From NCBI RefSeq assembly GCF_963675165.1, contig NC_087377.1, forward strand, positions 6,651,122 to 6,715,121: a stretch of 64,000 nucleotides of DNA, written 5' to 3'. The notes beneath the pieces are model-generated. The model had not been told where the DNA came from and searched no databases. It saw only the letters and a program-made list of their open reading frames with translations. Below, piece after piece: positions 1 through 56,659 of this stretch. Every line of letters starts with the position of its first letter. Positions within the stretch are counted from its first letter, which is position 1. A program made the position numbers and the translations under genes. Source of the DNA: Halichondria panicea. Its lineage: Eukaryota; Porifera; Demospongiae; Suberitida; Halichondriidae.

Positions 1-309
1 TGTGGTTCCCCTGGCCAATCCTAGCAATTTTTCACATTGCAAATGTTTTTCTAGTCGGATGTATATAGATTAATTATGATGTTGTACATCGCAAAACAGC
101 AATGTATCTGTGAAGCCATTTAGCTGGAACATTGTAAACTCTACAATTAACCTCTTAGCTCTCTACATAACAGTTAGACACGGTGTCTATGGGATTTAGG
201 CTTGACTATACAATACAACAAGTGTATTTTGCTTGACAATGGGATACCAAGTAAGTTGTAGGACTGAGTTGTCTCTAAAATAACACTAAAATAATGCTAA
301 GTCGCCAAC

Positions 310-452
310 CAGAGGAGGTACGACAGGGGCGGAGCAGCTCAAGCAATTAGCCTTTGATTGAGCAATAATTATCCGCCCAAGTCGTATGTTTTTGCTGAGA
401 GTAATCAGAGGCTAATTACTTTAGCTGCACCTCGCCTGTCGTACCTACTCTG
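310..452. mobile_element. 143-bp MITE with CAGAG termini (copy A)
   Basis: Inverted ends CAGAGGAGGTACGACAGG and CCTGTCGTACCTACTCTG are flanked by the direct repeat GTCGCCAAC (301-309 and 453-461). The CAGAG end resembles the hAT-type terminal consensus, although hAT target duplications are usually 8 bp. It has no coding capacity. It is present at the same place in copy B, so it predates the duplication. Confidence 0.75.
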
Positions 453-460
453 GTCGCCAA

Positions 461-1334
461 CTAGGCCTGCATGCATGGTAGAGATTGTAAATGGGAATGG
501 TTTCAGATTAAACTAATTCCAATGATTTCTCTTGCCGAAATCACAAAAATAGCTCCGTGTTATCTTGAAGCTAGCTAACTATTATAGGTAGCTAGGTATT
601 AGATCTAGGTGGTAGCTATGAATTGCAAGTTGTGTCAAACAAAGTTGTGTAAGAAGGCCTCCTCCAATAAGCATCTTTACCAGGCCTAGTTGGCGATGTA
701 TAGCTAGCGAGACAACAAGGCTAGTTGTAGGTATACTAAGTCCCATAGTATACCTCCTTTGAGCCCATATACATGTATTCCCATGTAGATTCCCATCTAA
801 ATGCACGATAATGAAACCCCTAGCTAACAGCATCATTTTTATTCTTTAATGACATTACTATACCATACAGTGGGAAATTTTCGTGAGGTGCAATTTTTCG
901 AGGGCAGACATGCAGAAGACATGAAAATTCAAACTGAGATAAATTCCCATGGCACCGGTATTTCACATGCAAAGCTATTGGTGGGTGTGGTTTCCAGGTA
1001 TTGAACGCGAATAGTTATTAGAACCCACGAACATTTCTGCTGAGGGCTCTGGAACCAAATAGCGAAAATTTGCACCGGTGAAAAAGTGCCACTATACAAT
1101 GATTACTATATAATTATAATTATGTAATGTTAGGTAACTTACTTGTATGCTTGATACAAGCCTTGTGAAATGCTACCATAATTTCCACTAGTCGACCATA
1201 AGTGGCTGTCGAATTCGATGGATTGTCCAAATCAATTCTTCAATTTCATTAGAGCAGTGTGAAATTTGGCTTGGGTACTGTTGAAGAGTCTCGGATCGTT
1301 ATCGATTTCGTCTAACCTATAGCATGACTTAGGC
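461..1334. other. Gene-free stretch, copy A left flank
   Basis: I see no supportable gene. The segment is part of the duplication but diverged from 37,278-38,129 by many substitutions and small indels. Divergence drops abruptly near 1,290-1,300. Confidence 0.6.
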
Positions 1335-1919
1335 CTAGCCTGTACTTGTATTCGTTGTATCCAGCAATCTCGGGGTAGACAACTGGAGAAGAGCTTCTTC
1401 CGAGCACTCTTGACTCAACTGAGCTGCAGTTGCTGTATTCTGACGAACTGTAAACATAGAAATTCCTTGTTAAAGAAATAAATCACATTATTTCGTACTG
1501 TCATGTGTAGTATAGCTATATACTGTTAAATGTACACCAAACAATATAATGATCGACACCTGACTCAGTGGTTGTGTGGAGGACTTCATGAGCCAGTTCA
1601 GTCGCTGCATTATCTGTGAGAATGATGACATAACAGCATATACATGAGACCCATGCACTTACACAATTGCAGAATCAATGTAGGCTAGCTATGTAAGTTC
1701 TTAATAAGCCAGAACTGATCGAAAAAAGTTTATGGGGGAACTCCATGAAAATACGGCCCACATCATAGGAAAAGTAGCTAGATAACTCACTTATCTCATC
1801 TCTATAGAGAGCTCTGTAGACAATGAGGACCACTTTCCTAGCAGCGGCATTCTTCATCTCACACTGGTAGTGACCAAAGTCCTCCTCACTCACACTCTGG
1901 ACGCTCAGAGTGTTGGATA
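1335..1919 (-). CDS. 3' end of an Ig-domain gene, three exons (copy A, partial)
   Basis: Three minus-strand exons join with matching phase 1 splice sites. Exon 1919-1791 (129 nt) has acceptor CCAG and donor GTGAGT. Exon 1613-1560 (54 nt) follows acceptor CTCACAG and ends at GTGTCG. Exon 1447-1335 follows acceptor TTTACAG and ends in TAG. The first encodes the second half of an I-set-like Ig domain, with the F-strand signature EEDFGHYQCEMKNAA followed by a G strand. The rest encodes a ~55-residue Thr/Ser/Gln-rich tail without an obvious membrane segment. Phase 1-1 exons are typical of extracellular modules. The first half of the Ig domain and the start were not found upstream (above 1,919), so the gene may be partial or broken. 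The Ig call is fairly secure; the tail exons are inference from splice phase. Confidence 0.5.
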
Positions 1920-3036
1920 CTGGATTTCACTTTGCTCCAATCATCGAGGAAAACTGCTCCACAGAATTTCTATAAACTTGAGCACATACATGCTTGCTTT
2001 TTGACCGACACAATCTATAGATGAAAAGACAATCTAGATGAATTAGATCAATTGTGACATACGCATAATTATTTCTGGGCCTAACGCTATACATATACAT
2101 TTGTTGTCTTTTGACCTCTGAGATCAAAGGAATAGAAGTGCCAGTATAATTATGGCGTTTTGCACTGGGGATATTCATGCACTCCTGGCGGCACTCATAG
2201 CCATGTAATAACTATTGTAAAAACTGAGACCCTACACACCTTAAGTGTGGTTGGGAAAGGTGAGTGGAAACTGTCATTCTCGTGATGTGCTCTGACACTA
2301 TAAGGAATATCAATTGAAACTCTCAGGATACTCTAGGGCCCATGTGCCAATAAGGACCATCTCCTAGAACTACTGTAAAAAAAATTGTGGAAAGCACAAA
2401 AATGTGCAGGTGTTAAAGTTGTAAATGTGGTTTGTCAAGTGCAAGCACGCAATACGGTGCACAAAGCACACAATACATACAGTGTTCAGTTGTAAATGGG
2501 TTTGGATAACAGCTTCTAATCCAATAGGTGTTCGCTACCTGTAACATGGATATCTACGGATTTGTTACCCTCGTGCTGTTGTGTGTATTCCCTCGGGTTA
2601 CAAATCCAATACACCCTTGATATCCATGGTACAACTACCGTATAGCGGATATATTTCGAGGGTATAAATGTTTGTGGTTTTCGCTGATCAAGGTTCTACC
2701 GCGAACAATTATACCCACAAATTTAATATCACATGCATGCATGCTGCATAAAAGCTGCTATTCCGTGAAAACATTTCTAACAGTCAATTCCGCAAAAGTT
2801 TATACCCTCGAAATAGAAATATACCTGTATATTTATTACTTGTTTAGTATAGTTAGAAAAGGTAAGTGGAAACTGTCATTCTCGTGTTATTGTGATTTGT
2901 ACTGTTTACTTTTGCTACCATTTAGATTAGCATGCATGGCTATACATCAGACAAACATACAAAAAACAGGCACACTATTATAACAGTTGACAAACTATCA
3001 GTTGGCAGCTACATAAACTAACCAGTACAACAAAGT
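1920..3036. other. Intergenic, copy A: repeats only
   Basis: No gene is supported. A block with the core GGAAACTGTCATTCTCGTG occurs twice (~2,266 and ~2,868). The piece ~2,100-2,180 recurs around 57,790-57,860. The inverted-repeat element at 2,637-2,826 occupies the right part. Upstream exons of the Ig gene would be expected here but none is convincing. Confidence 0.5.
2637..2826. mobile_element. Inverted-repeat element, TATAAATG-ended family (copy A)
   Basis: The left arm contains TTTCGAGGGTATAAATGTTT and the right arm TTTATACCCTCGAAATA, preceded by an ACCGTATAGCGGATAT end. Related copies lie near 24,333-24,490, 26,970-27,095, 58,770-58,945, 60,369-60,545 and 61,641-61,810. It is non-coding; short ORFs in it are fortuitous. 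Confidence 0.6.
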
Positions 3037-4335
3037 TTATTTTGTAGAAAGCAGTGACTCAGATATCGAAAAGAAGATTCCTGAAAGAAGTAATATGACG
3101 TAAAGTGGGTTGCCGAGAGAAATTGGTATGTTTATTCCGGGTATGCGAGGCAAGAAATCGAAGTCCTCTTCCCATTCCACTGCCAGTCGTCGAGCAAGCG
3201 TTGAACGATTTGGGTTATCCTGAAACTTCTTCAGTTGGTTTTCTCTCAACTTGTTAAAGAACTCTTGATGATAGGTGTTCATTTTCCTAGCACAAAGATA
3301 AGGAATAAGCAAGGTGATGAACTGGTTAAGGTTATAAAGTAGATAGAATATTTGTGGAATGTCTGCAATTGGTGTGTCGCCATCACTATCAGCTCTCCAA
3401 GGACGAAGAATATTGTACGTTTTCAGAGAAGTTGCTACAAGATAGATAATCCAAGGAACAATAAACCAAGTTTGAAATAGCTCTTGAATAGCCTCAACTT
3501 TCTTTCCAATCTCTGTGTAGTTTTTGTCATACAATTTCCAGTCCTTGCTTACTAAATTCCAATCAGCAAGAGCTTGCTCCTCGGTGAGCTCAGGGGGAGA
3601 GTCCTGAGTTTGTTCCACGGTGGGCTCGGTATGTTTAGAGGAAGAGTTCTGAGTTTGCTTTACAGTGCGCTCGCAGGGAGAGTCATCAAGAGGCCAGATT
3701 TTACTCAAATAAAGTGTAGCGTAAATCATCAATGCCCGGACGATGTAGGCTGATAAGTAACGGAGAAAGTTGAAAGCACAGTAAGTTATGTAAATTTCAT
3801 GGTAGTGCCGAGAGCACTCCAGTGACCGGCTTTCACTATATTTAATTTCTTGAAAGATTCCAAGTCCAGGAATAGCAAACCCGAGTAAAATGTATGGTGC
3901 CAGTATGAGTAATATCACTGGTAGGTAGTAAAATCTTTTGGAAGTTGCTCTAAAGAACACTCTTGAATCAGTATCTTTCTGCTCGAAAAAGAAATGGTAA
4001 AACTGCTTTCCTAGTAGAATGAATTCCAAAAGTCGTAACACGCTTAGAATTGCATAAACAACAGTAGTGAAGATAAAGTCATGGCGAATATCAGCTTCTG
4101 AATTTGTGCTGTTGCTGCTTTTATCGTTGAAATTGCACTTGTTCCATCCTGTAATTCCGTACCGGGTTATTAACAGTAACCCTCTCAAACTGAAGACTAC
4201 CCACACAGCTCCAAACACAAACCAAAAAATTGCTTTCTTGGTTATTAACAGTAACCAACTGAAGACTACCCACACAGCTCCAAACACAAACCAACAAATT
4301 GCTTTCTTGGCACATGTACTACACTTCTGTGCCAT
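3037..4335 (-). CDS. Eight-pass membrane protein, unrecognised family (copy A)
   Basis: Single-exon 432-residue ORF starting ATG at 4335. Likely membrane segments lie at residues ~12-30, 36-57, 87-109, 137-160, 183-208, 288-305, 328-349 and 411-428. A hydrophilic Ser/Thr/Glu-rich loop (~215-275) carries two similar ErTVKQTQ/EpTVEQTQ blocks. The first two membrane segments are a recent internal duplication: the KKAIxWFVFGAVWVVFS unit occurs twice. Shared motifs (TWFIVPWIIYLVATSLKT, FLPRIPGINI, PLYVILLLSGI) show it is a paralog of the divergently transcribed gene at 4622-6270. Copy B differs at one residue (Thr131 to Asn). I do not recognise the family; a channel, receptor or transporter role would be guesswork. 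Confidence 0.85.
   Translation of the reverse strand: MAQKCSTCAKKAICWFVFGAVWVVFSWLLLITKKAIFWFVFGAVWVVFSLRGLLLITRYGITGWNKCNFNDKSSNSTNSEADIRHDFIFTTVVYAILSVLRLLEFILLGKQFYHFFFEQKDTDSRVFFRATSKRFYYLPVILLILAPYILLGFAIPGLGIFQEIKYSESRSLECSRHYHEIYITYCAFNFLRYLSAYIVRALMIYATLYLSKIWPLDDSPCERTVKQTQNSSSKHTEPTVEQTQDSPPELTEEQALADWNLVSKDWKLYDKNYTEIGKKVEAIQELFQTWFIVPWIIYLVATSLKTYNILRPWRADSDGDTPIADIPQIFYLLYNLNQFITLLIPYLCARKMNTYHQEFFNKLRENQLKKFQDNPNRSTLARRLAVEWEEDFDFLPRIPGINIPISLGNPLYVILLLSGIFFSISESLLSTK
4166..4309 (-). repeat. Internal tandem repeat inside the membrane-protein gene (copy A)
   Basis: Two units (75 nt at 4166-4240, 69 nt at 4241-4309) are nearly identical. They encode the first and second membrane segments. 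The upstream genomic unit carries two extra codons (Arg-Gly). The near identity of both DNA strands implies a recent in-frame duplication that added one membrane span. Confidence 0.9.
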
Positions 4336-4621
4336 ATTCTAAGTTTAACACTGCTTAATTAAAATAACTATAGACTCTATAAAATTGTTATCCTATAATC
4401 GCATCTATCTAGAATTTTAATCTAAGGTTTGTCAGGGACTTTACCAGGGACTTCCCAAAAGGTTTGTCATGCAGGACTTCATCAGGGACTTTACTGGCCT
4501 TAATTACCAGGACTTGACTCCATTCAATGACCACATGCTGATTAAAGTTCTATGCTGTACATCTATGCCTATGGTCTAACTCTAACCCTATTCTTTATAG
4601 ATTGATCTATAGGCTTTTAAG
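4336..4621. promoter_or_regulatory. Divergent intergenic region, likely shared promoter (copy A)
   Basis: About 286 bp separate the start of the minus-strand membrane protein and the proposed first exon of its plus-strand paralog. It holds two related GGACTTTACYRGG-type blocks around 4,437-4,500. A bidirectional promoter is inferred from head-to-head arrangement only; no defined motif was recognised. Confidence 0.35.
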
Positions 4622-6270
4622 ATGGTACTTAGCGGTGATCAAGATAAAGCTCAGGTCAGTAGTACATATACATAGACTAAAGACATTTAATATAAGATGC
4701 ATGTATACGTATCTATAATTATAATATGTGACACAATGGATGTACTGTCACATGCATGCAGTGCTGGTAGAAGGGATCATGAGGCTTATACGGCACCAGA
4801 TGTGCAAACGCTCTAAAATTTATAACTTTTCCTTTGCTAATCCAAACCCCTCCCTTCACACATACATCTGGTGCCGTATATACCACTTGAACTGGTAGAA
4901 GTAGCATTCCTGAACAATTGCCAGAAAGTATACTTTATGGTCATAACATTTCTCCTCAATTATTAAAGTCCACTAATGGATCTACCAGGTTTCTAGTGAT
5001 CTATTAAGAGCTTATAGGCCTCGAATCCAGGCCGATTAAAATACATATTTTAATCGGTAAAGCCTATTGATTTCACAGCATACAATTATTTACTGACACG
5101 TTGTACTTTTACATGCAGGCCGGCAAGAAGTTGCTATTTATACTGCTAGCTGTAGTAGTTGAAGTGACATTGCTGATCAAATTCCCGCTCTTTGTTCTAC
5201 GACAGCTGTCAACAACAGTTTTCCTGAAACAAGCCTGTCCATCAGTTAATGCAAGCCAAGTTGGCCAAGAATACATATTCACAATGGTAGTTTATAGCGG
5301 CTTGTACATTGGTCGCTGGTTTGAAACATTTGTGCTTCACATTCATATCTACAAATTTATCTTTTGTCAAAGCAACATAACTTTTGGGTCATTCTTAAAA
5401 AACTGCAAAAACGGGAGCTGTAAAGCAAACATTACACTGTTTATAACAGCTTTTGTACTTTCCTTATCATCTATAGCTATACCGATTCTTGGGACTATCC
5501 TTGAAGTAAAAAATGGGGAAGATTCTTCTTCAAGTTGTAACAGCTATATTTACGAACATCATTTGATCTATTGGGGTCTGGACATAATACGTTACATACA
5601 TGATGTTGTTATTCGCTTATTGCTACTTGTATCAGTGGTTGGCATAAAAGTGATTTGGTCTGAAGGCAAGGAAAAGGCAGGCAAGAAACTAGAATCTGAA
5701 ACAAGAGAGCCCACCACTTATCTAGAATATTCGCTGCGAGATTGTGATGTCACCAACCAATATAATAAAACGAAATTGGAAGACTACGATCAAAAAGGGA
5801 GATGTGTAAAGCAAGTTGTTGACATTTTTGAAGTGTGGTTTATTATCCCTTGGATACTGTTTTACATTAGTGCATCGCTAGAAACAGATCAACTGCTGCT
5901 GTCGTGGAGGAATGGATCGAGTGGAAGTGATCGTCACTATGATTTCTCCGAGATTACGTTAATGGTGTACAATTTTAACCAAATAATCTTCCTTACATTG
6001 GCATACATCGGCTCACAGTTAATAAATTGTGAACACAAGGAATATCTTAAACATTCACGATATGAACGACGTAACAAGCCCCATACAGCAAGTATTCAGG
6101 CTCACGCTAGGCTTACAAAGTTAGAGAAAGATGACCACTACGATTTTGTGCCACGAATCTGGGGCTCTAGTATCAAGGTCCATTTAGACAGCCCAATATA
6201 TGTATTGTTGTTGCTCCTTGGTATTTTGTTCACATTAATGAATGGCTTGATCTCTGAAGAGAATAACTAA
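4622..6270 (+). CDS. Multi-pass membrane protein, paralog of 3037-4335 (copy A), two exons
   Basis: The long open frame runs 5113-6270 from an in-frame ATG, but the sequence around it reads as a splice acceptor (TTTTACATGCAG before 5119). An exon at 4622-4654 (ATG, eleven codons, then donor CAG/GTCAGT) joins in frame, giving 394 residues that begin MVLSGDQDKAQAGKKLLF. Membrane segments are predicted near the N-terminus (LLFILLAVVVEVTLL), then at YIFTMVVYSGLYIG, LFITAFVLSLSSIAIPIL, the DIIRYIHDVVIRLLLL region, VWFIIPWILFYISASL, IIFLTLAYIGSQL and the C-terminal IYVLLLLLGILFTLMN. The motifs WFIIPWI, DFVPRIWG and PIYVLLLLLGI are shared with the neighbour on the other strand. Family and function are unknown. 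The two-exon model is inference; the alternative start is ATG 5113. Confidence 0.8.
4787..4880. repeat. Hairpin in the first intron (copy A)
   Basis: A perfect 17-nt inverted repeat, TATACGGCACCAGATGT (4787-4803) and its complement (4864-4880), with a ~60-nt loop, lies inside the proposed intron. It is probably a tiny MITE remnant. It is identical in copy B (41,582-41,675). Confidence 0.7.
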
Positions 6271-6320
6271 TCCATTTGCTTTTGTTTAGCTGTTAAGATT
6301 TGCTATAGTATAAGTTTTTG

Positions 6321-6340
6321 CAGGAGCACATGTGCTCCTG
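6321..6340. repeat. Perfect 20-bp palindrome after the membrane-protein gene (copy A)
   Basis: CAGGAGCACATGTGCTCCTG lies ~50 bp after the stop codon and is followed by TTTTTG. It could form a hairpin in the 3' UTR. Function unknown. It is conserved in copy B, which is uninformative because the surrounding block is nearly identical. Confidence 0.7.
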
Positions 6341-9300
6341 GTTTTTGTCATTGAGTAGTATATGATTTATTTTTTGCAGGATCGATAATTCACAATTAAA
6401 TGAAGACAGACTCATAGAGTCTTAAAAGTTTTGATATTGTCAGCATAGTTGGCTATTGCTAGCGTTCTAGCCTGAAAGTGTTCACTATTACATTCAGCAT
6501 TAGCTCTATACTGATGCAACATTTGCTTGTAAATGTAGTTTGACCTGTCGAGCGTGTCTGCTAAAACCCTCACGAATCAATTTTTCATGCAGACATGATT
6601 TAATTCCACTACAAGCAAATGTTCCAAATTGAGAAGTAATGCCTGTTGTTGAACTTCCATCGAGCTCATTTTATCAACCTCGAACTTTTATGGCTATGTC
6701 AGAATTCTGATGTGACCAATTAAATCAAGAATTTACAGAGAGCGACAAAAAGTGGCAATTGGTAGTGCTAGTCAGCCTATAACTATGGCTACTGTTAGAC
6801 TGCAGTACGCCTGTGCAACACTTTTTTTGTTCCTTCCAGAAGCCAAATAAAATTCATAGCTGCATAAACGCTTCTTGCAAACGTTTGCGATTGACCTATG
6901 CATGCGTTGCACAATAATTGGGGTATGACACTGATGTAATGACAATTAACATTCCATTGTCCATTGTGCAAAGACCTTCAGACTAAAGTGCTTGCCCCTA
7001 GAGGGCGGCTGATTCATATGAGATTTAGAGATACTCATGCCAGTTATATTAAATCTCACCAGTTTTAGAAGTGTATCCATGCAGGGTTAAGGTGTTAAGG
7101 GTAGTGTATCTCGTAGTGTCTCAGCACAGAGGGGGAGGAGGGAGGACACTTGGTAACCACACCCACTCACACCACTCAGCTCAGGAAAAGGGCACTGCAT
7201 AGAGGCAAGGTTATCATACTTGACAAATTGATGCTGTCACACAATTCATTTTACCTCACACGGCCAGGGCACATTCATAATTATTATAATCAAATTCTGC
7301 CTAACACTTGTAGCCACTAGGACTGCACACCTTATATAATTACCAAGAGTCCATGATAAAAGAGAGAGATAGAGTATATATCATATTCCTATATAGATTC
7401 ACTGTTTGTTACAACAATTAATTGATATCACATTCTTTATGATGATAAGACGACCATAGATACCATAATTATAGTATCTATGAGACGACCATGACTGATA
7501 GCCTCATTCGCAGCGTCTCCTTTTTCTGTTCTTTGACACACAGGTCAATAAGATAAAATACGGTAAGAATTGGACAGTTCTTTCTTTCTTTCTTTGTTCC
7601 TTCAATTCTTACCTGTGTGCCCAACTGAACAGAAAAAGGAGAGGTTCTGATATACAGTGTGTAACACTGTTTGCTTCACTTAAAACACATCACTTAATTA
7701 ATAAAGGATGCATCCTTGCAGTTTATACCCAATAATTATATAGAGATTATACAGTCAGCACATATCTATGGTATACGGGTCAGAGAGCCGGATTAGCAAG
7801 AGTTTCCTACTGTATTCAGGGCTTGTACATGAAACCGCGGTGTTTACTCCAGGAAACTAGAGCACTGAAGTGTTAACCCTCTGCTGTTGACATGAATAAA
7901 TAGATCTATAAAAAGCAGAGGAGTAATTAAGAAGCAACAACTACAATTCTACCGTTTTAATAGTGACCTATATATATATATTGCTATAGGCAACATGTAA
8001 GTTTAGTTTTTGCTCGTTTTTATACGACAACAAAGCTTTTAACAATCGAAATCTGCCACTTTTATAACTTGTTGTGTGGAGGCTACACTGTTAAAACAGG
8101 GGTGTATATGTACACCCCAAAATGGGTACCACATACGCTTTAAAAACTACCCCCTAGGGTGTAAACTACATACTCAATATTTACACCTTTAAGGTGTATA
8201 TATCTCTGTATAAGGTGTACTATAGGGTGTATAGTATGCATATAACCTGCATTCACATGATCACAGCTGTATCAAGTTAAAACACATCCACAAAACATCA
8301 TAGCAGCACTAAAATGAGATTATAATTATACATGTGCCAAAGGGTTCAATTTTGTTCGTTGAGTCCAAAGAATACACTTAGCTCGCACGTTGGCTCTTGT
8401 TCAACATCACATAGAAAATACAGTCTGCACTGGTATGGCAAACAACAAGGTAGGTGCTCCCATTCGTTTTTCATTCACAAAGATCGTCTGAATTCTGCAC
8501 AGAAAACAAAACACAAAGTCACAAGCATACAGTACATGGAGAATGTTAATTTTCACCGAACAAACTTTTGACGCATTCACATAATTATTATAAGAGCAAC
8601 ACATGCACAACCTTAAGGATCTACCTTATATACATTCGTACATGTACAAAATAGATAAGTCTTCAAAAACTCTTTAAATATTTGGATTGACGGGATACCT
8701 ATGTGCGCATACATAGAAAAGTACAGTCAGCTATTTTATAAAAGCCAAATTGAAGCACGTAATAGCATTGTGCTAACCTTGATATCATCTGAAGAACCCT
8801 CGCTATCAATTTTTTCCCTTGTCGCCATCTCTAACCTGAATATGCAATAATCCATGAGTCCCAGTTCTCCATTAATGATTGATTGGACACTCACATCTTT
8901 TTCAATACTGACGATTGTCTTGAACTCGGTTCAAAACTATTGAATATAGGCCTGCATAGAGGAATCAGATGTGTACAGATCAGATAAACTTGCTAACGAC
9001 AGGTAAGAATAGTCAAAGTCATAGATGGAAAATTAGTTTAGAACTTACCACTTCGTGAAGCTTCAAAGAAGGACAATTTATTCATAAGATCTGAGACCGC
9101 AACATAGATAGTTTGGTATAAGCTTCAATTTTGCTTACACCTCCTCTGCAATGCTCTAGTTTTTAGTACTGTTTCGGTTAGGGAGAGATTTGAAGAAGAT
9201 CTAACGGCTAAAGTCCAAAGTTACAACAGAGTAAGAATTGTTAAGAAAATTTTCTCCAGAAAATTAGTTCCATTGCAATTGATTGTTATTTTTTTACAAT

Positions 9301-9736
9301 CACCCCCATTTTAGTGTACATGTAAATGGATTTCTCACTATAAACATTAATTTTTGGGGAAGTATATTTGAATGAAAGCACCGCGGGTGCTGATGCCGCG
9401 GTGGAGGTGCCAAAGCTACATAACATAAAACTACTAATAGCTAGCTTTTATCATAGAACTGTTCTATCCATGCTTTTATACACACATTTATCATGATCAA
9501 CATTTTTGCATGCAATCACAGGGAAACTCAAATAGTGGGTAATGATCGACCATGATTGTTGTTAAAAACGATCGATGCCAAAAGTTCAAGTCTAAATTAA
9601 TGGCTGCAAGTCAGCAGAGCCTTGTAGCTCTTTTCTCACTCTTGAAGCTACCAATAGCTAGCGTTATAGTGCAGAGCTAACTACTCAGTACAGTAGTAAC
9701 ACTCGGTGAACAAGACTCTTCTGCAATGGCATTATT
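6341..9736. other. Long intergenic region, copy A
   Basis: No gene could be supported in 3.4 kb. It contains an inverted repeat (CTCCTTTTTCTGTTC at 7517-7531 and its complement at 7627-7641). It also has a cluster of GGTGTAYA-type repeats around 8,100-8,235. From ~9,370 it holds an interspersed repeat also seen at 21,712-22,135 and 28,056-28,400. Copy B (43,136-46,531) is almost identical. Confidence 0.6.
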
Positions 9737-10592
9737 ATGCCTCGAGGCGTAGCCGCACGAGGGATACGGTAAAGCTGACTGTGTGTGTGTCTGTCTGTGT
9801 GTGTGTGTGTGTATTCCAGCTATAACTGCTCAACGGTTACAATGCGACGAAAACTAACAGCTTCTATAGGCTTCTAGCCACGTTCTCTTGGATTTTGATT
9901 CGTGGATTAGCAAACTAAAGCTTCTTTCTCGAGTTATGGCTAGTTTGACTCACATTGAAGGCTGTTGCAGTCTCTTCAGAATCTTTCATAGCATCATCTG
10001 TCCGCACAAACTTTCTATTCAACATATGAGTTAGCCTTGCACTAAAGCGCTAGCTTTTTGTTAGCTACAATACTCAGAAAATATCTGTTAAAACAGCTAG
10101 CTAGCAGTACAGTAGCCATTTGTAAAATTGATCTCTTTGGACACACCCTTTAATTATTCCTGTGGATGTAATGCGCATGCGCGCTCATTCCCCATGTGTG
10201 AGAAAATAATATCCAAGATCCAGATCCAGATCCTCCTGGCAGAATCATCTTTGTCTTGAGGGCCTGGTAAGCCACAAAACACTACCATATAACAATATAG
10301 ATAACAATATGCATGTACACAGGTCTTTTCTTCTTAGATATTATATACACTGAACTACAGATCCTGGAAGAATCAATTTTCTTCTTTCTTGATGTCCTGG
10401 TAAGCCACATAATACAAAAAATAATAACTTACAATAGATGCATGTAAATAAGTCTTTTCTTCTCAGTGACTTTATATAGATAAGCTAACTTTAATATAAA
10501 ATTCATTATAGATAACACTCTAATACTTTTGAGCGAAAGCAAAAACATGGCGAGAGGCATTAGCACAGCGCCAGCTTGAACACTAGTTTATT
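9737..10592. mobile_element. 856-bp insertion present only in copy A
   Basis: Copy B reads straight through (GGCATTATTCTAAG at ~46,524). In copy A 856 bp are inserted between flanks that both end in TTATT (9732-9736 and 10588-10592), a likely 5-bp target duplication. The related repeat at ~28,290 also lacks it, so insertion is the derived state. The insert contains, in inverted orientation, a diverged member of the neighbouring repeat family, with the CTCGAG, AGAAGCCTATAGAA and (CA)n blocks. No ORF of note was seen. Confidence 0.8.
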
Positions 10593-10730
10593 CTAAGTAA
10601 GCAAAACTAAGCATAACTCGAGAACAAAGTTTTATTTTGCAAATCCACAAATAGCATGCCAAGAAAACATGACTAGAAGCCTATAGAAACTCTTACTTGC
10701 ACTTCATTGATCCTTGAGCAGCTGAAATAG

Positions 10731-10784
<54 letters not shown>

Positions 10785-10825
10785 ACCGTATACCTCGCTT
10801 GCGCATGCACACCGAGGCATAATAA
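10593..10825 (+). repeat. Interspersed repeat arm carrying a CA microsatellite (copy A)
   Basis: Blocks CATAACTCGAGAAC, CTAGAAGCCTATAGAAAC and GAGCAGCTGAAATAG precede a (CA)n tract at ~10,734-10,777. It ends with GCATGCRCACCGAGGCATAAT. Members also occur at 9,737-9,945 (inverted), 28,290-28,400, 31,650-31,800 and 31,990-32,120. The microsatellite sits at the same place in several members, so it belongs to the element. Confidence 0.7.
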
Positions 10826-10979
10826 TGTTAAACCTTATTCATTCACCTATATAATGGTATCAGCACAACAATTGATGTTCCTATCTTAAGGTACGTACAA
10901 CTACTCAAACATTTGTGGTATCAGTTTACTTGCTATAGACTGGATGCACTATACACAGATGTGCTTTTAGTAAAGTGTT

Positions 10980-11620
10980 CAGACAGATTCTTGTAAGCGA
11001 TAGTTATTGAGATAATCGCATGTTGTCCTATTATTCACTGTGATTCGTACAGCGATTAATCGCGTATATCAATAATTACACGTCGTTAAGGCAGTAATTG
11101 CATGTCGTCATTAACGACGTGCAATTACTGCCTTGACGACCGCACGTTCGAATAACAGCCGCGGCTAATTTTTTCACTGAAACTGCAGCTAAAAATGTCC
11201 TTAAAACTCCATCACGAACGATTAACAATCAATAGTATGGCTACTCGTGCAATAAGGGATTAATAGCATGAGTAACAAGCAATGGCAAGGATACTAATTG
11301 CACGAGGCGTACTAATCGTATGATGTGCTATTAGTGACAGGAGAGTGTACAGCAATTAATCCCGTATCACATCCGATCCAGTAATTGCACGTTGTCATTG
11401 ACAGCGTGCAATTACCTATCAAGTAATTGCACGCTGTCAATGACAATGTATAGTTTTCGAATAACGGCCACGGCCGAAAATATTAATAAAAACTGCAGAG
11501 AACTTCATGATGCACTCATTAACAAGCACTGGCAAGGTTAATAGAACTCGGCTATGTCTCGTGCAATTAGTATCCTTGCCATTGCTTGTTACTCGTGCTA
11601 TAATAATACCATAAATTATT
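10980..11620. repeat. Palindromic repeat cluster with GTGCAATTACTG motifs (copy A)
   Basis: Repeated and inverted copies of TGCAATTACTGCC, GTAACAAGCAATGGCAAGG and TAATAGCACGAGT are arranged as overlapping hairpins. Related blocks lie at 46,920-47,560 (copy B), 56,660-57,010 and 59,140-59,490. The block at 59,140 interrupts one member of a tandem array, so the family is or was mobile. Non-coding. Confidence 0.7.
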
Positions 11621-22135: not shown

Positions 22136-22143
22136 GCATTACT

Positions 22144-30238: not shown

Positions 30239-30261
30239 TTAAAAGAGCAACATTTGAAAGA

Positions 30262-37269: not shown

Positions 37270-37278
37270 GTCGCCAAC

Positions 37279-46000: not shown

Positions 46001-46669
46001 GGCTAAAGTCCAAAGTTACAACAGAGTAAGAATTGTTAAGAAAATTTTCTCCAGAAAATTAGTTCCATTGCAATTGATTGTTATTTTTTTACAATCACCC
46101 CCATTTTAGTGTACATGTAAATGGATTTCTCACTATAAACATTAATTTTTGGGGAAGTATATTTGAATGAAAGCACCGCGGGTGCTGATGCCGCGGTGGA
46201 GGTGCCAAAGCTACATAACATAAAACTACTAATAGCTAGCTTTTATCATAGAACTGTTCTATCCATGCTTTTATACACACATTTATCATGATCAACATTT
46301 TTGCATGCAATCACAGGGAAACTCAAATAGTGGGTAATGATCGACCATGATTGTTGTTAAAAACGATCGATGCCAAAAGTTCAAGTCTAAATTAATGGCT
46401 GCAAGTCAGCAGAGCCTTGTAGCTCTTTTCTCACTCTTGAAGCTACCAATAGCTAGCGTTATAGTGCAGAGCTAACTACTCAGTACAGTAGTAACACTCG
46501 GTGAACAAGACTCTTCTGCAATGGCATTATTCTAAGTAAGCAAAACTAAGCATAACTCGAGAACAAAGTTTTATTTTGCAAATCCACAAATAGCATGCCA
46601 AGAAAACATGACTAGAAGCCTATAGAAACTCTTACTTGCACTTCATTGATCCTTGAGCAGCTGAAATAG

Positions 46670-46723
<54 letters not shown>

Positions 46724-48075
46724 ACCGTATACCTCGCTTGCGCATGCACACCGAGGCATAATAATGTTAAACCTTATTCATTCACCTATATAATGGTATC
46801 AGCACAACAATTGATGTTCCTATCTTAAGGTACGTACAACTACTCAAACATTTGTGGTATCAGTTTACTTGCTATAGACTGGATGCACTATACACAGATG
46901 TGCTTTTAGTAAAGTGTTCAGACAGATTCTTGTAAGCGATAGTTATTGAGATAATCGCATGTTGTCCTATTATTCACTGTGATTCGTACAGCGATTAATC
47001 GCGTATATCAATAATTACACGTCGTTAAGGCAGTAATTGCATGTCGTCATTAACGACGTGCAATTACTGCCTTGACGACCGCACGTTCGAATAACAGCCG
47101 CGGCTAATTTTTTCACTGAAACTGCAGCTAAAAATGTCCTTAAAACTCCATCACGAACGATTAACAATCAATAGTATGGCTACTCGTGCAATAAGGGATT
47201 AATAGCACGAGTAACAAGCAATGGCAAGGATACTAATTGCACGAGGCGTACTAATCGTATGATGTGCTATTAGTGACTGGAGAGTGTACAGCAATTAATC
47301 CCGTATTACATCCGGTCCAGTAATTTCACGTCATCATTGACAGCGTGCAATTACCTATCAAGTAATTGCACGCTGTCAATGACAATGTATAGTTTTCGAA
47401 TAACGGCCACGGCCGAAAATATTAATAAAAACTGCAGAGAACTTCATGATGCACTCATTAATAAGCACTGGCAAGGATAATAGCACTCGGCTATGTCTCG
47501 TGCAATTAGTATCCTTGCCATTGCTTGTTACTCGTGCTATAATAATACCATAAATTATTGCACTCTTAGCGCATACTAGTAATTATCCTTATATGCACCT
47601 ACCATGTATGGTAAAATTTTGGTCACATGAACGTCTCGGTGACTCAGGCAAATTTCTTCTTTGTTCCCATTTGACCAGATGTACGTGGCAGTGTTGGCAA
47701 GACATGGCAAAATTTTCTATCTTTCCTTCTCGTCCATGACAACCGACAACCTGCACCTACTTGGGTAGATCTAAGTAAATGTGGTAAATCTTGATACCAA
47801 AATGCCTGACCTCTTTTGCCACAAAGCTCAAAGCTAGATTTGGGATAAATGAGCCCCACCCTAGGCCTAGTCTCGCGAGCAGACTTGTCCTAGAGGTTCC
47901 CCCCCTCCCACGTCTGCTCGCGAGACTAGGCCTAGCCCTTCCTCTATCCATCCATTCCAGGTCTAGATGCAAATATTCATTTGTAAAATTGTTGACCATT
48001 ACCTTTGTTGCAGTATTTTATGCAATGAAGACTGATGTTGCTATTCTGTTTGTGATTGTTTTTTTCTTAAAACAG
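43066..48075. other. Long intergenic region, copy B
   Basis: Counterpart of 6271-12065 without the 856-bp insertion (empty site at ~46,531). It includes the 20-bp palindrome at 43,116-43,135, the repeat at 46,165-46,760 with its CA tract (~46,673-46,716), the palindromic cluster at 46,920-47,560 and the 69-bp MITE at 47,864. No gene is supported. Confidence 0.6.
47864..47932. mobile_element. 69-bp TA-target mini-MITE, copy B only
   Basis: The perfect 21-bp inverted ends begin GGCCTAGTCTCGCGAGCAGA and surround a ~27-bp centre. They are flanked by TA (47862-47863, 47933-47934). Copy A has CCCTAGCCC uninterrupted at ~11,920. Removal of 71 bp (element plus one TA) restores the copy A sequence exactly. 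One of the smallest mobile units that can be shown by direct comparison here. Confidence 0.95.
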
Positions 48076-51000
48076 GGTCTTGTTAGACCAGAAATAATTG
48101 GTGCAGTTGTCCTACCACATGGTGAGTAGAATATCTAATATCAGTTGTGACAACATTTTATAATCATGACTTTTTTATAAAGCACCGTACCGGTACCGTA
48201 AAAACTCGATTTGAATAGAGGGCACCTTAAATCGAGGTTTTACGGTATACCGCGTACCGTAGTACCTCAAGACTCGATTTAAGGCGACACTTTTTAATCA
48301 CAATTCCAGAGGTCGCTTCTTATAGAAGTTAAAAAATTATTTTGAAGTCCTGGTGTCGCATATTTAGAGAGTTGCGTCTAATTAGAGGTAACTCCACCTA
48401 GTCTATTTGCCTCGATTTCAGGCCGCATAAAGGGTCGTCTTGAATCAAACTCTTACGGTAGATCTACTTGATACAGCGCTAGAACAAAATTCCACTTTCT
48501 GGTGCATTTTTAGAAATCCAAAAATCGCGTTCAATCTGAGCTGGCACTTAATCATGTAGGCACTGCAATCTCTTAGTACGTGTCAAAACACCATGACTGT
48601 GTACATTCCGTCACGCTTTATCAGTCTCACAAACGGTGCCATGTACTGCACGGCCATCATAACATAAATGTCACAGACAGCACACAAAATTTACTAAATC
48701 AGGACACATCGATGTAGTAAAGTGTGAAATCGCTTTAATTAGCGTGAGCCCAATTTTTTTCAGATTTCAACAGCTATAATTATTCAGTCTATATGTAGAC
48801 TTTCACCAAGGTTAGCATTAGATGGGCGTAGCCTGTCCATATACAATGTAGGCTATTGTCAGCTTTCACTTTGTTCAAACGATTGTCATCTACACTGTTG
48901 CAAATCTTTTGTTAATATAGCAGGCTACGGGTAGCTATCAGAATGCTATTAGATGGGCTAGAAACCTTCTATATCTACTTTCTTTAATCCACTTCCGTTT
49001 GTTGTGACGTTATTGTTTTACTGAGCATATACGATGTTATCTAAAGCCCCCAGATATCGGGTGAGATTAGCGCATGCGCAAGATCTGCCTTGTCATGCTT
49101 TTTTATAAGCATCATAATAATTAGCAAACATAGCGCTTTTTAGAAATTGCGTTCAGTCTGAGTTGGCGCTTAAATTATGGTACCGCTGTAATTAGTATCA
49201 GGCGGCAAAATTATACTGCATGCTAAAGGTTTGATGTTGCTGCAAGACTATAGATCTAGATCATGCATGGTAGTCTAGCAGTCTTATACCGTAGTTAGTG
49301 TAAACACAGCACCACTATAATTTTAATGTGAGGTTCTAAAAGAAAAAGAAGAGCCAACTGTTCACAGATACAAATTTTGTGTGGTTCTTATATAAAAAGG
49401 TGTGTTTGTGATGCCAAGGCAATCGCTTTGGAGTTTTTATGAGGATGCATTCAATGCTATAGCTGCAATACTGTACATGTATTACTGTCTAGATGCAACT
49501 GTAAAAACGATCGACCTAGCTGCGAGAGAGATTGTACTTTACTCTAGACTAGCCATAGCTATTATAATTTAAGCGCCAGCTAGGAATGACAATTTTGCGG
49601 GCTAGAAAAAGCTCTTACGCCACTTGAAAGTGTAATGAATTTTTGGAGCGCTGCAATTATAGAAGTCGATTGGCTTCTCGTTCACATGCAGGTGGAATAG
49701 CAGTTGACCCCTCTCATTTTAAAACCACCAACAAGACTTCTCTGGCTCAAGCATGGGAGATTCACAATGCTTGTGTGAAAGTAAGTTTAGAAATTACTAG
49801 ATATTCATCGGTAATTATATAGGGCTCTTAATGTTCGTCAAAGGAAACTATAACCGTATTACTAGAATGTTTTGTGAGCATCAAACATTTACGAATTTTG
49901 CGAGGGTTGATCAATTCGCATCAATAAAATCCGCAAAACCTAAATTATTACTAGTAAATACACACGATCCTTGCCAGAACGCAATAGTTAGATCGCAAAG
50001 GGTCAAATTTTCTGCTAATTTGGCTCATTCACAAAAGTTTTTCACCCGCAAAATATTCTGGTAATACGGTACATAGTATTTAAATGCTGTAATGCTGTAA
50101 TGATGATAACAATAACAATAATTATAATCGTCAACATAACTAAATCTCACCCTGCTGACGTATAATATTTAGGCTGGCAAGCTGACACAGGGGCTAAAGC
50201 CAGACCTCATCCTACTGAGCACCCCTCATGGAGTGGCTGACCAGACTAACTTCCAGTTCTATCTTAACTCAAAGGTACTTCACTAATACAGTTTTTTTCA
50301 TGTACGTAACGAGAGCTTGATGATTCAGTATACAGTGTCAAATTAACTATTTCTCAAATGAAAATCATGAACGATTGGGATTTGTAATCAAACTTTTACT
50401 GTGTTGTATATCAGCTTGTGCACAATTGTTAGGCTGTGCATTTATGGTGTTACACAATGCATTTACAAGTTGTTTTGCCACGTATGTGTGTGTAGGGTTT
50501 TGGGAGTGCCGATACTGACAACTGTGCTTGTCCCCCTTGCTGTTACAACGTCTCTGTTGACTTGGATCAAAATGTCTCCAAGGACCTCGTTATTGAATTG
50601 AAGGTACTTATTTACGACTATCTATAACATCTCCTATCAACAAGGTATCGTTAAGGAGTTTTTATACGCTCAGAATATCAGTATCTTTGATCGTTTAAAC
50701 CCTAAACCTATAATCCATGAAGTCATATTCATTTCTTGGTGCTATAGGCTATGAGTCGTAATGTGAGTGGTCTGGTAGGGTTTGGAGATGCTGTCCCCTT
50801 TCCTCTTGCCTGGGGGGAGGTTATTCCCCTGCACTTCCTGTTGGGTGGAGCCAGAGTGGTGGTGCTCTCTCAGCCCAACAGGAGGTACACGGACAGTGTA
50901 CAAATGATTCCTGAGCTGCTAGAGATGGGTGAGTACGTGACAATGCCTCGATGAGATTCTTAAACATGTTTTCACACTCTATATCCCTACATGATTGTAT

Positions 51001-51411
51001 ATATAGGGACGTCACTGTTCAGTGTACTTGAGTCGTCAAACCTGAAAGTGGTGGTAGCCATCAGTGCTGACCTGGCACATACTCATGACCCCAATGGACC
51101 CTATGGCTATTCAAATGCCTCCCAGCCATTCGATGATGTGAGTATTCTATCATACACTAGCTTTACCTGGTAACTATGCATACTGGTACACCTAAGCACA
51201 CAGAATTTCATTGGATACTTTTTGTGTTTCGCTGCTAACATAACTATGGTACGGCGTAGTCTATTTATTATTTGTTTATTCAGGCCCTCGGAAAGTGGGC
51301 GGAATCGCTTGATTCCCAGGCTCTTTTGCACACTGCTGCTAGTCTGGTGGACAGCGCCTTGTCGTGTGGATTCACTGGTTTGGTTATGCTACACGGACTC
51401 ATGGAAAGCAT
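48076..51411 (+). CDS. LigB-type extradiol dioxygenase-like gene, seven exons seen (copy B, ends missing)
   Basis: Exons 48076-48121, 49692-49780, 50173-50274, 50496-50603, 50748-50928, 51007-51137 and 51284-51411 have the same lengths and phases as copy A. All splice sites are kept and the reading frame is open, while introns differ by indels and a MITE. That pattern is expected if both copies were under coding constraint. Differences include LTQGL for LIEGL and VDSALS for VDRALS. The PHG, PHG and SADLAHTHD histidine motifs are retained. The terminal exons are again not found, so either they are unusual or both copies are truncated. Confidence 0.8.
49854..50069. mobile_element. ~216-bp TA-associated MITE in a LigB intron, copy B only
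   Basis: The ends CCGTATTACTAGAATGTTTTG and CAAAATATTCTGGTAATACGG-type inverted repeats are flanked by TA. Copy A lacks it (site CACTACATAAT at ~13,888). A distinct sub-family from the CCGTATAGCG elements. Confidence 0.8.
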
Positions 51412-52605
51412 GTGAGTATAACAGTACCAAGGGTGTATAAAGGAGAAAAGGGCATGTAACAGATGTGAGCAAAAACCAAAGTGGGCGGTGGAAAACGACA
51501 GTAATATCTATTTAGTATATCCTGTCTATATATAATTATGGCTTTTGTTCTTCTTCTTTATACACCCTTGACAGTACATAATTATTTGCTCATTTAATTT
51601 GCATCACTATATACGTGTATAAGGTCAGGGTGTCATACAAGGGGGTGGAGGGATTTGCATTTAGGTACTAGTTGTATGACAAGAACGCGCAAAGGCAACC
51701 CAAAACTCACCAGAATACACCTAAGACTAGCATCACCGACTCAACATTTCCGCATGTCCCCCTGGGTCGGTGATGTTGCACACACTAACAGAGTATCAAA
51801 AATACACCTTAAAATGTTCTGGTGATCGACTTTTAGACACCCCTTTCAAAATTCTTGGATCCACCCCTGCACGTGTCTTTATTTCCCCCTTTACTTCAAA
51901 ATCCTGTATTTTTGGTATGTAACATTGGCTTATGCACCAATCCCACAAACATTATTCCAACTTCGGACAACGTTGAATAAAGTATTTGGAGAAAACCAAT
52001 GCAGTTATAATTATACTATCTATACATTGTAGACTAATTATCGATCTATGTGCATAAACGTTTTTTACACTTAACTTGTACATGCACACACGCTAAAACA
52101 GAGGTTTAAAGTTCTGGACTTCTGAACTATTAGTCAATCACCATCCAAGTTATTATGGTATGATGGTAGCAACATTTCTAAAGTCAGTACTAAATAATTA
52201 GTTATTGTTGTACGTGATTGACTATGTGACTTTTGTGTTAAGTGTACGTTGCCATTTAGTGCAAGTTGTATGTGCAGATACCACAATTCACAATAATTAC
52301 CGCACATTTCTATACACCTATACACATTATTGTAGAATGTAATATGAGAATCTAAGTAACTGTGACACCAGAGTAATGGGCAGGCAATTTTCCACATGCA
52401 GCTGTGGTTATCATCATTTATTATACCTCCTCAGCAGTTCTGTACTAGACATGTACATTAATAGATCATTCGTGATACCACGTCTCACACTCACTCCCAC
52501 ACTTTAAGGCAATTTGGGTATGTATATAATTACCCAAATTACACACCCATAATTCTCAAGCTATAAATTATACTTAACATGCATTATTTGGTACGTCTGT
52601 CTATA

Positions 52606-53896
52606 CAGTAGACTCTCACTAATCCAGCTCTCTGAAGTGCGGTCACCTTGATATACAAGTCGTTTCATTTGGTACGGATTTGTGTAGTGCACAAAACTCG
52701 CCCTGAAATGCGGCCACTCGCTATCCCGTTCCCAGTACAGGCCAATTTGTCTCTAAAATAGGCCTGGTATTGATTGTATGTGGGCGTGGTTGGAATTTGA
52801 TGGGTGTAGCTAGATGGGCGTGCCCGTCCCCAACCATAAAAGGGGGGACGGGTTTCAGCCCTATCTAGCATTCGTTCTGCTGTTCCTGTACTAATGAATA
52901 TAGTTAATATTAGCCGCGCCTCTAACCACAGAGCTCAGTTTGCTGCAGAAAAGGGGAGGAGCTGGGAAGCCAAGGAATGCATTACGTAAGAACTACATGT
53001 ATATAATCTGATTGGTGCTGAAATGTATTACGTAAGCAGTCTGCGATCTGAATGTGCTGCGTGATTTTCTGCAGCAGAACAAATGCTAGATAGAGCTGAA
53101 ACCCGTCCCCCCCTTTTATGGCTGGGGACGGGCACGCCCATCTAGGGTGTAGCCGGAAACTGTTTTGTAAAAACATACTAATTATACAGAATGACCGAAT
53201 AGTTATGATATTGTATATTCCTTGCTTTCAGTGAGCTCGTGCATGCCCATCAGCTAAGAGTAACGATGGATCATGGGGGCTAATGGAAAAATGGAGCTTC
53301 CTGTAAAATTTAAGTGTACCATAAATATTCACAGAAACTCACATGCAGTCATGCATGGTCTACACAACACCAGCGAGCATGAGCCAATGCCGTAACGTCA
53401 CACTATATACTAGGATTGTGTCTACAGTTAGTAAATTTCCAATGGTGAAAGGGGGTTTATCAAAGGTACGTAGTGACTGGGCCTGTTCTTTCATGAGAGT
53501 GAAGCCTCCTTGCTTCGCACAAGCAGTGCATACTCCACTCAAGAACACTTGCACACGTACTTACTCTGGCACGGAATTAATGATTACGGTAGCTTTTACG
53601 GAGTAAGTATTTTTACGTACACCTATTATATAGTGTTTGCTCACTCAGTGAATACTTAGTGAATTCCAGATACTCAATACTAGGCGTTGTCGACCTAGCG
53701 TTATTTTAGAGACAAATCGGCCTGGGAATTAGGCTAGCTGCCCCACAAACTAGATTTTTTGCATTTTGAATGTGGTTCGAGGTACAGGGACTGCTATCTA
53801 GCCACGGCTATTTTCTGAAATACAGCCACCTCACTATAATTCTTTCCGGCCAAGCTATACTATCCTAAGGGTGACCGGATTAACAAGACTATACTG
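52606..53896. mobile_element. Pogo/Tigger-like element with nested insertions (copy B)
   Basis: The ends CAGTAGACTCTCACTAATCC and the inverse of CGGATTAACAAGACTATACTG are flanked by TA. It contains the remains of the 930-bp element seen in copy A, which in turn contains the 334-bp MITE at 52,811-53,144: three layers of insertion. Confidence 0.6.
52811..53144. mobile_element. 334-bp MITE with 9-bp target duplication, copy B only
   Basis: The ends TAGATGGGCGTGCCCGTCCC and GGGACGGGCACGCCCATCTA are flanked by GGGTGTAGC (52802-52810, 53145-53153). Copy A has a single GATGGGTGTAGCC at ~16,951. The 9-bp duplication and TAGWTGGGCGTG end match the element at 62,067 and suggest a Mutator-like source. 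Confidence 0.95.
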
Positions 53897-54229
53897 TATA
53901 TCCAAATACTAACAACTCGTTGCATGAATGGGCCTGTATAGCCGCCTGTTCAATATTGTTGCACTTTATACATAAAAATACCAAACCCTGTAGATCTACA
54001 TGTGCATGCATGCAGGTAAGCATAATAGCATATAATTATGATTATAGCAACAGTGTCTGCATACCCATGGTTACACAGCATATAATTGTATTCATTGCAT
54101 AGTAGAGTCTATATAGGTGTCCACATAACAGATAAACACTAGTCTTGATAGCTAGTAAATTTTACAATCCTTTCCTAGCACCAACTTTTGTACCGTGACA
54201 CTGCAAATAGAGCAACAACCCTATACAAA

Positions 54230-56203
54230 ATGTCTACCCCTGATGCTGAGGAGGGTCCTACTACTGCAACAACACCCATTGCTGACATCATTTCAAACAT
54301 GAAAGCAAGCAGCGAATGGAGAATCCTTGTGTATGGTGTTAATGAGCCAGATCAACAAGAGGCAAACGAGCACCATATGCATATCCTGAGTGGTATTCTT
54401 GGAAAAGAAATATCTCCTGACGAGCGAACAATTCCAAATTTTGACTTTTCAAGCAATGGTGTTACGGTGACAGTCCATATAGGATCTCACCCTGAATGCA
54501 ACGTATCTCATGACGAAGTTGATTTGATGGTGTACTTCATCCCTGTGAATGGAGATATCGTCGACCATTCCCATGTAGTTAAAATAGGAAAGATCACGAC
54601 TGCACACGGAGCTATGGTTTGGAAGCACTCTGTTATTGTGTTTACTGGTGTTGATGCCACTGCAGACGCGTATGCACTGAAGACTGGAGATGTAGCTACA
54701 CGATTGGAGGGAGTACTTGACTCTTGGAACACTACAGTTCAACAAGCTCTCGACTCAGCAATCGCCAACGAAGTAGGTATCAACTCAAAAGAAGTGTTGA
54801 TACGACCAGCAGGAAGACGAAATCAACTCAATCTACCAAAACCACATACACGATGGTTTTCACTTCTTTGGTTAGGATGCTTTCTGTCATCTAAAGTCAA
54901 CTCGATACCTGCCATTCTAAAGGTGGCTCAAGGCAGGATAGCAAACATCGTGAAGGATAGTGACATCGACCAGTTACAGCTGTTCGAGCAACATATTCAA
55001 GTCAAAGAGAATAGTATACAGCTCCCCCAGAATATGAGAATCGGTCTCGGTTTAGGTGGAAGTTCAGCTATTGCCGGTGCTGCTGCTGTTGGAGCCACAA
55101 TCGGTGCTGTTATTGGTGCATTGGCAATTGGTGTTCCTTCGTTTGGAGTAGCTGCTGGTACTGGGCTTGCACTGGGAGCAGTTATTGGAGGAGGATTAGG
55201 AGCTAGCATTGCAGGAGCTGCTGTGGGTGGGAGATACAAGGCGGCAAAGGATAAGCAGATGGAAGAAATCGATGCTTCTGAGCTGAAGCTCTATTACGCT
55301 GAGCTTTTATCTCGAATTCCAAAAATGAGTGCTTATCTGACAACATGGGCTGAAAAGCAAATCAATTGCAAGATCGTTGTTACTGGTGGGAAAGGTGAAG
55401 GTATTTCCACAGTAACAGCTGCACTGATAGGTAAACCACCCCGAGAAAGTGGCTCAGGTCTTTATCTGCAGCAAGTTATCCGTATGAAAGCAAATCTGCT
55501 CGCTTATGATTTCCAGGGTTTTCCAAAAGTGGGAGACAAGCAACTTAAGGCAAAAGAGCTAGTTGAGTTTCAAAAGAGCAAAAATACTCACCTGCTAGTA
55601 TTTTGTATACCGATAACATCGCCAAAGGAGGATTTTGTGTATTCTCCACACGTCAAGTACTTGGAGCGGCTGTGTGAAGTCAATGACAAGATTCCATGCA
55701 ACACAGTTATTGCTCTCACTCATGCGAATGAGATGAGGGCTGAAATGAACAAGCGAAACGATCTGTCACAAACAAGCCTCCACCAGTTTTTCCATGATGA
55801 GCTCGAAAGCTGGAAGCTGCAAATATCCACGGTATTTGAAAAATACATTCATATCGACAGTGAAATCACAGAGAAAATCCCAGTAATTCCAGTTGGAAAT
55901 TTGGAGCCAGTAATCGATCTTTCCGATGACGAAAATCCCACCCCAGCTACCCAGTACCATTGGCTTTCTGAGATGCTTCTCCACGCAATGCCGGCAACAA
56001 AAGCAGAAGGATTGTCTGCTCTTATCGAAGCTAATCAACAACGAATTAGTAGCAGACTATGTCCTTATCCAGACAATGCTCCCGAACTAATCGTCGAAGC
56101 CAAGTGCTCAATGTTTTCAAAGGCTGGACTACAAGATAAGAAACAGCCAGGAGAGGCGATTGGTATGATCCTAGGAGTTAAAGAACCGGATCAAAACGAG
56201 TAA
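54230..56203 (+). CDS. Tandem AIG1/Toc34-like GTPase-related protein with glycine-rich centre (copy B, intact)
   Basis: Single exon, 657 residues from ATG 54230 (context CAAAATG, shared with copy A). Residues ~30-215 form a first GTPase-like domain: WRILVYGVNE replaces the P-loop, and VDLMVYFIPVNG and MWKH-like VWKHSVIVFTGVD match AIG1-type strands. A WFSLLWLGCF segment follows. Residues ~271-335 are Gly/Ala-rich (GAVIGALAIGVP, GLALGAVIGGGLG), a probable membrane-inserting or glycine-zipper region. The second domain starts at ~378 with IVVTGGKGEGIST, in which the P-loop Lys is replaced by Ile, then YDFQG (DxxG-like) and IALTHANEM, resembling the LTHA guanine-specificity motif of Toc34/AIG1 GTPases. 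The normal catalytic role is therefore doubtful; a pseudo-GTPase scaffold or membrane-remodelling role is inference. Confidence 0.8.
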   Translation: MSTPDAEEGPTTATTPIADIISNMKASSEWRILVYGVNEPDQQEANEHHMHILSGILGKEISPDERTIPNFDFSSNGVTVTVHIGSHPECNVSHDEVDLMVYFIPVNGDIVDHSHVVKIGKITTAHGAMVWKHSVIVFTGVDATADAYALKTGDVATRLEGVLDSWNTTVQQALDSAIANEVGINSKEVLIRPAGRRNQLNLPKPHTRWFSLLWLGCFLSSKVNSIPAILKVAQGRIANIVKDSDIDQLQLFEQHIQVKENSIQLPQNMRIGLGLGGSSAIAGAAAVGATIGAVIGALAIGVPSFGVAAGTGLALGAVIGGGLGASIAGAAVGGRYKAAKDKQMEEIDASELKLYYAELLSRIPKMSAYLTTWAEKQINCKIVVTGGKGEGISTVTAALIGKPPRESGSGLYLQQVIRMKANLLAYDFQGFPKVGDKQLKAKELVEFQKSKNTHLLVFCIPITSPKEDFVYSPHVKYLERLCEVNDKIPCNTVIALTHANEMRAEMNKRNDLSQTSLHQFFHDELESWKLQISTVFEKYIHIDSEITEKIPVIPVGNLEPVIDLSDDENPTPATQYHWLSEMLLHAMPATKAEGLSALIEANQQRISSRLCPYPDNAPELIVEAKCSMFSKAGLQDKKQPGEAIGMILGVKEPDQNE

Positions 56204-56659
56204 ACTGACTGCAGTTTTAGCACAGTTTTAAATAGCACACTATAGTAACTATAACACTATTCCATGCATGCATGAAAACAAACAAACGTATGTATATATG
56301 CGAGTGTAGCTTTAAGTTTATTTGTGCCAACAATCTATAATACAAATCACTATCACAGTTATGTGTGGTTGCTCCTTGACAACCATTAGAGCGTAAAACT
56401 CATAATTATTTATTATGATCATGCTATTCACCCTCTTGCATGTATACCTGTGCATATACCCTATAGACAGACTGAGCACATTGTTATCAAATTGTACAAC
56501 TGTGTATACCTACACAAGCAAGAAACTAAATTATCTTCACATCACGTTTAATCGAATTCATTTACTTGTTTACATCCATTGGTATCGTAACATGATCACC
56601 TCAAAGTATAAATTCTAACTGTATGGGTGCATGGGAGTGTACTACACTGACTTCAATTA

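Follow-up and report, generated by a model that had tools for sequence, protein, structure and literature searches.

A near-identical core within a diverged tandem duplication of Halichondria panicea: a probable case of long-tract interlocus gene conversion

Introduction

Among described systems, the locus considered here most closely resembles the interlocus gene conversion that takes place within segmental duplications. Putative human conversion events from long-read assemblies have been reported to have a mean length of 6.26 kbp, with the top 10% exceeding 14.4 kbp and the largest extending over 504 kbp (PMC10172114), and tract means based on experiments are given as mostly 50 to several hundred bp (PMC3924818). 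The likeness to the human events lies in a near-identical tract within a more diverged duplication, in the whole genes contained in it and in its kilobase scale; the human events, however, were called across many haplotypes against a reference (PMC10172114), whereas the present case comes from one assembly.

In this study, we analysed a stretch of 64,000 nucleotides of Halichondria panicea DNA (referred to as the window; contig C1, positions 6651122-6715121, of a genome of 131 Mb in 39 contigs) together with 50 kb on each side. Window coordinates are used throughout, and negative numbers denote positions before the start of the window. The region holds a tandem cluster on one chromosome, in which a block of about 21-25 kb occurs twice, as copies A and B, accompanied by an incomplete third copy, C. 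For much of their length these copies are several per cent apart. Unequal crossing-over in tandem gene arrays is a second known process with which this cluster can be compared. The likeness in this case is that copy A is chimeric, with a B-like left part and a C-like right part; however, unequal crossing-over alone cannot yield the two-sided core described below.

Results

The core shared by copies A and B

In a first-pass annotation of this DNA, the locus was described as one 20-kb repeat in two copies between 60 and 56590. The duplication is real, but this extent proved incomplete, as the block reaches about 4.3 kb further to the left and the third copy C begins at 63638. The base-level alignment of A with B gave the following parts.

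60..1288, no strand assigned: diverged left flank of copy A; partner in B at 36847-38083; 42 substitutions and 14 gap events in 1,198 sites (3.5%)
1289..11268, no strand assigned: putatively homogenised core of copy A, with an insertion of about 856 bp; 9,124 aligned sites, 4 substitutions, 1 gap event
38084..47207, no strand assigned: the same core in copy B, from the base-level alignment with A
11269..13643, no strand assigned: moderately diverged right flank of copy A; partner in B at 47208-49661; 40 substitutions and 4 gap events in 2,373 sites (1.7%)

The four core substitutions, at A3944, 5352, 6045 and 6882, amount to 0.044%, and the sole gap event is the insertion in A. The last difference of the left flank is found at A1288/B38083 and the first of the right flank at A11269/B47208, and the offset between the copies is constant at 36,795 from 1,288 to the insertion. 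This is in agreement with the core of about 10 kb, with few differences and an offset constant over 8.4 kb, that had been placed at about 1,300-11,250. The flanks had been described as rich in both substitutions and indels, which is correct for the left flank and for the substitutions of the right flank; gaps are, however, few in the latter as far as 13,643. The divergence profile, 3.5% in the left flank, 0.044% in the core and 1.7% in the right flank, refutes a uniform identity along A and B and bears out the earlier statement that one age cannot explain both core and flanks. When all 86 A-B substitutions were shuffled over the 12,695 aligned sites in 20,000 trials, the longest span with at most 4 substitutions never exceeded 2,994 sites, compared with the 9,124 observed. 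The core is a block with two boundaries and with much higher identity than its paralogous flanks, beyond what is expected by chance. It also contains three perfect microsatellites, counting those above the thresholds of our script and found in both core copies, and these are of equal length in A and B (TTCT, 16 bp; TA, 12 bp; AC, 42 bp).

Among the best 40 of 6,183 candidate matches in the assembly, A and B are the only full-length copies of the core, and the others are short pieces, the longest two being about 1 kb at 83% identity. The region shared with copy C does not include the core. A mobile element as the cause of the whole core was rejected on the grounds that full-length matches among these best 40 are restricted to A and B and that homologous flanks are present on both sides. 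On the right, at 11268, the core ends inside a dispersed repeat at 11066-11296, of which inverted copies that are 90-92% alike are located at 56761-56991 and 59236-59435. A search of the whole window against Rfam at the gathering score gave 0 matches.

The insertion that separates the two core copies is itself a mobile element.

9732..10587: young, high-copy mobile element in the core of A, absent from B, as indicated by an empty site in B

At least 40 near-full-length copies of this family, the present one included, occur genome-wide at 97-100% identity (best 40 of 3,266 candidates), and a second, nearly identical copy of the approximately 858-bp element is found in inverted orientation at -2216..-1359, about 11 kb away. 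Since the family is near-identical and the site in B is empty, we regard the element at 9732-10587 as young. Most simply, its insertion postdates the homogenisation of the core, the alternative being a loss from B. A comparison of the element ends in 8 copies left the target-site duplication ambiguous.

Genes within the core

Two large open frames are found within the core.

3037..4338, minus strand: 433-aa open frame in the core of A, encoding an orphan protein; B counterpart at 39832-41133; 99.8% amino acid identity between copies
5071..6270, plus strand: 399-aa open frame in the core of A; B counterpart at 41866-43065; 100% amino acid identity between copies

The frames form a divergent pair that is open in both A and B, and their products are 27% (BLASTP) to 30% (MAFFT) identical to each other. 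Based on their hydrophobic stretches, we read both as putative membrane proteins. A Pfam search at E 0.1 assigned neither protein to a family, and a PDB search with the 399-aa protein returned one match at E 0.63, which is not meaningful. An AlphaFold model built from a two-sequence alignment had a mean pLDDT of 50.8 and was too poor for a fold search. Besides the four copies present here, six-frame protein searches revealed two or three relatives on contig C15.

The presence of two open genes might suggest that selective constraint, or else a mutation cold spot, has preserved the identity of the core. However, the approximately 6.6 kb of core outside the two frames carry a single difference (6882) and are as identical as the frames themselves, and the flanks, at 1.7-3.5% divergence, begin at sharp edges. 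We have therefore rejected this explanation, which is hardly credible. Two of the three differences within the frames are silent, since the 399-aa proteins of A and B are identical.

A further reading gives the gene pair a larger role. The ends of the putative conversion tract lie outside the whole orphan pair, and repeated, selected conversion over long tracts would keep the pair identical, so that a two-gene module of lineage-specific proteins would evolve in concert. This reading rests on the position of the ends and on both genes being open in A and B, in contrast to the next large frame, which is divided in A as well as in C.

54179..56203, plus strand: open frame of 674 aa in copy B; its counterpart forms two frames in A (18254-19660 and 19599-20033) and is split in C too, a reading at the level of frames only

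We consider such selected, repeated conversion of the pair rather unlikely.

The left end and the outer flanks

Position 60 marks the end of an element located at about -495..60 in copy A and not the limit of the duplication. The element has inverted ends of 128 bp that are 97.7% alike, and its right end creates the apparent left limit; to its left, the homology between A and B resumes and extends to -4253/34843. Roughly the first 65-78 bases of the window have matches at many genomic sites. A recognisable gene is present at the left end of copy B.

34824..36215, plus strand: GT92 glycosyltransferase gene of copy B (PF01697, E 1.8e-23)

Its partner in A lies at -4287..-2893, left of the window, is open too and shows 95.7% amino acid identity over 460 aa. 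The GT92 pair has diverged unevenly, with 2 of 600 sites differing at -3453..-2854, compared with 25 of 797 before and 34 of 472 after this stretch. As the low-difference stretch is mostly coding, constraint may have contributed to it.

These outer regions bear on whether the duplication could be an assembly artefact, in which A and B are two haplotypes set in tandem, or the product of a haplotype switch within the repeat, and in which the core is a stretch with a recent common haplotype ancestor. Allelic divergence can be patchy, which would fit such an origin. In addition, a study of the assemblies of three vertebrates identified divergent haplotypes as the chief origin of falsely duplicated sequence (PMC9516828). 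However, the 10 kb to the left of the GT92 gene of A and the 10 kb to the left of that of B share 0 of 10,000 bases. On the other side, the sequence to the right of A matches that between B and C at 1,616 of 14,054 bases, in 22 pieces of which the longest span 629 and 515 columns at 80-83% identity, and these represent scattered repeats. The right side of A pairs instead with C, as 2,902 of the 14,054 bases match the sequence to the right of C, the longest piece having 1,195 columns at 92%. There are also 0 N in the 164 kb formed by the window and both sides, so that neither allele-like outer flanks nor gaps at the join were found. The sites that distinguish the core copies (1288, 3944, 5352, 6045, 6882, 9732 and 11269) are spaced at most about 2.85 kb apart, within reach of ordinary long reads, and the best 40 of the 6,183 candidates include no third core copy. 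Taken with the arguments in its favour, an artefact of this kind appears unlikely.

Copy C and the right-hand part of the cluster

To the right of the core, the relationship between the copies changes.

63638..64000, no strand assigned: start of the third, partial copy C, which runs past the window to about 71540
12916..20788, no strand assigned: part of A common to C (63638-71540); 95.5% identity over 7,993 columns; past a mixed zone at 13.28-13.68 kb, A resembles C more closely than B
15981..18138, no strand assigned: second near-identical tract, A with C; 6 substitutions in 2,158 sites, reached in 0 of 5,000 permutations
50098..56221, no strand assigned: right-hand portion of copy B; identity of the BLAST pieces with A and with C is 88-92%, and divergence is far higher at 52.35-53.95 kb

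Sites at which two copies agree against the third mostly group A with B up to 13277, are mixed from 13281 to 13596, with several grouping B with C, and from 13680 mostly group A with C, with a minority of others. Within 13.28-13.68 kb, A passes from B-like to C-like sequence. Windows of 300 bp between 13500 and 20399 show 96.3-100% identity of A with C; the identity of B with A is 92-99.7% in 13500-16199 and 88-95% in 18300-20399, and B is far more diverged in between. At 14400-14999 all three copies are within 0-2.4% of one another, and the pattern is therefore more than a simple two-part one. The test of the second A-C tract gave the same outcome without the diverged end at 20391-20600, with 0 of 5,000 permutations at both k=6 and k=3; its longest difference-free run (536) was matched in 143 of 5,000 permutations and is hence weak.

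At the equivalent position of the repeat, 52350-53950 of B and 16300-18200 of A yield only pieces that are 64-84% alike, far beyond the divergence of their neighbours, and both contain pieces of dispersed repeats. A dispersed element of about 335 bp with inverted ends of about 73 bp, similar to many places in the genome, is located at 52811-53145 and has no match at this position in A or C.

The switch of A from B-like to C-like sequence, together with a C-like piece further downstream (24703-25870 with 76057-77240, downstream of C, at 92%), is what a crossover between a B-type and a C-type copy would leave. This might suggest that A and B were put together from pieces differing in age, without any gene conversion, by unequal crossovers or by a large re-duplication with subsequent deletion. 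The support is only partial, because a second piece (22473-22972 with 81188-81683) is out of order. Moreover, the core has two boundaries, each adjoining older A-B homology, and crossovers alone would require two close events and intermediate arrays. An origin of the core by crossovers alone therefore seems quite improbable, although a crossover-type exchange may lie behind the distinct change of partner at 13.28-13.68 kb.

Discussion

The identity profile of this locus is, in our view, probably explained by a recent interlocus gene conversion of the core over a long tract, within a cluster subject to recurrent exchange and followed by the insertion of an element. A non-reciprocal transfer is favoured by the sharpness of both edges in combination with the older A-B homology that adjoins them and with the differing outer flanks. 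Both paralogues have kept their own flanks, which are unrelated on the outer left and share only scattered repeats on the outer right. Gene conversion had been put forward as the first option in the first-pass annotation and gives the best fit to the drop in divergence between the two sides. The ectopic exchange and the assembly join proposed there as alternatives are weaker for the core, since two boundaries are needed and the outer flanks differ, though exchange may fit the switch of partner in A. The conversion is deduced from the identity profile of A and B, no third core copy being among the best 40 of the 6,183 candidates.

According to the mechanism we propose, copies A and B of the tandem block had diverged when sequence was copied non-reciprocally between them, in either direction, possibly during the repair of a break that used the other copy as template and was resolved without crossover. 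About 9.1 kb would have been overwritten, with the flanks of both copies left in place, and the mobile element of about 856 bp would have entered A in a later step. One long event is the simplest form of this explanation; the same picture would result from a double exchange or from a number of events that overlap.

The partner switch of A and the second A-C tract at 15981-18138 add at least two mosaic features to the cluster, and non-allelic exchange therefore seems to be recurrent. Homogenisation is nevertheless not general in the neighbourhood, since two other local duplications of 2-4 kb lack a comparable near-identical tract, their 200-bp windows differing by about 1-12%. One pairs -20123..-16101 with -12190..-8163 (140 substitutions in 3,911 sites) and the other 72480-74892 with 81994-84470 (146 substitutions in 2,328 sites).

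A single 9-kb event would be long by the experimental measure, given tract means of mostly 50 to several hundred bp (PMC3924818). Compared with the putative human events, the tract of 9.1 kb is above the mean but not exceptional, and falls inside the published range (PMC10172114).

The core offers a clean, sharp-edged illustration of tandem copies being overwritten and turned into mosaics, here overlain by a later insertion, and a single divergence value cannot date duplications of this kind. If reads confirm the arrangement, it would add one more long conversion tract in eukaryotes and leave the picture of the process unchanged; the process is well known, and the core exemplifies it well.
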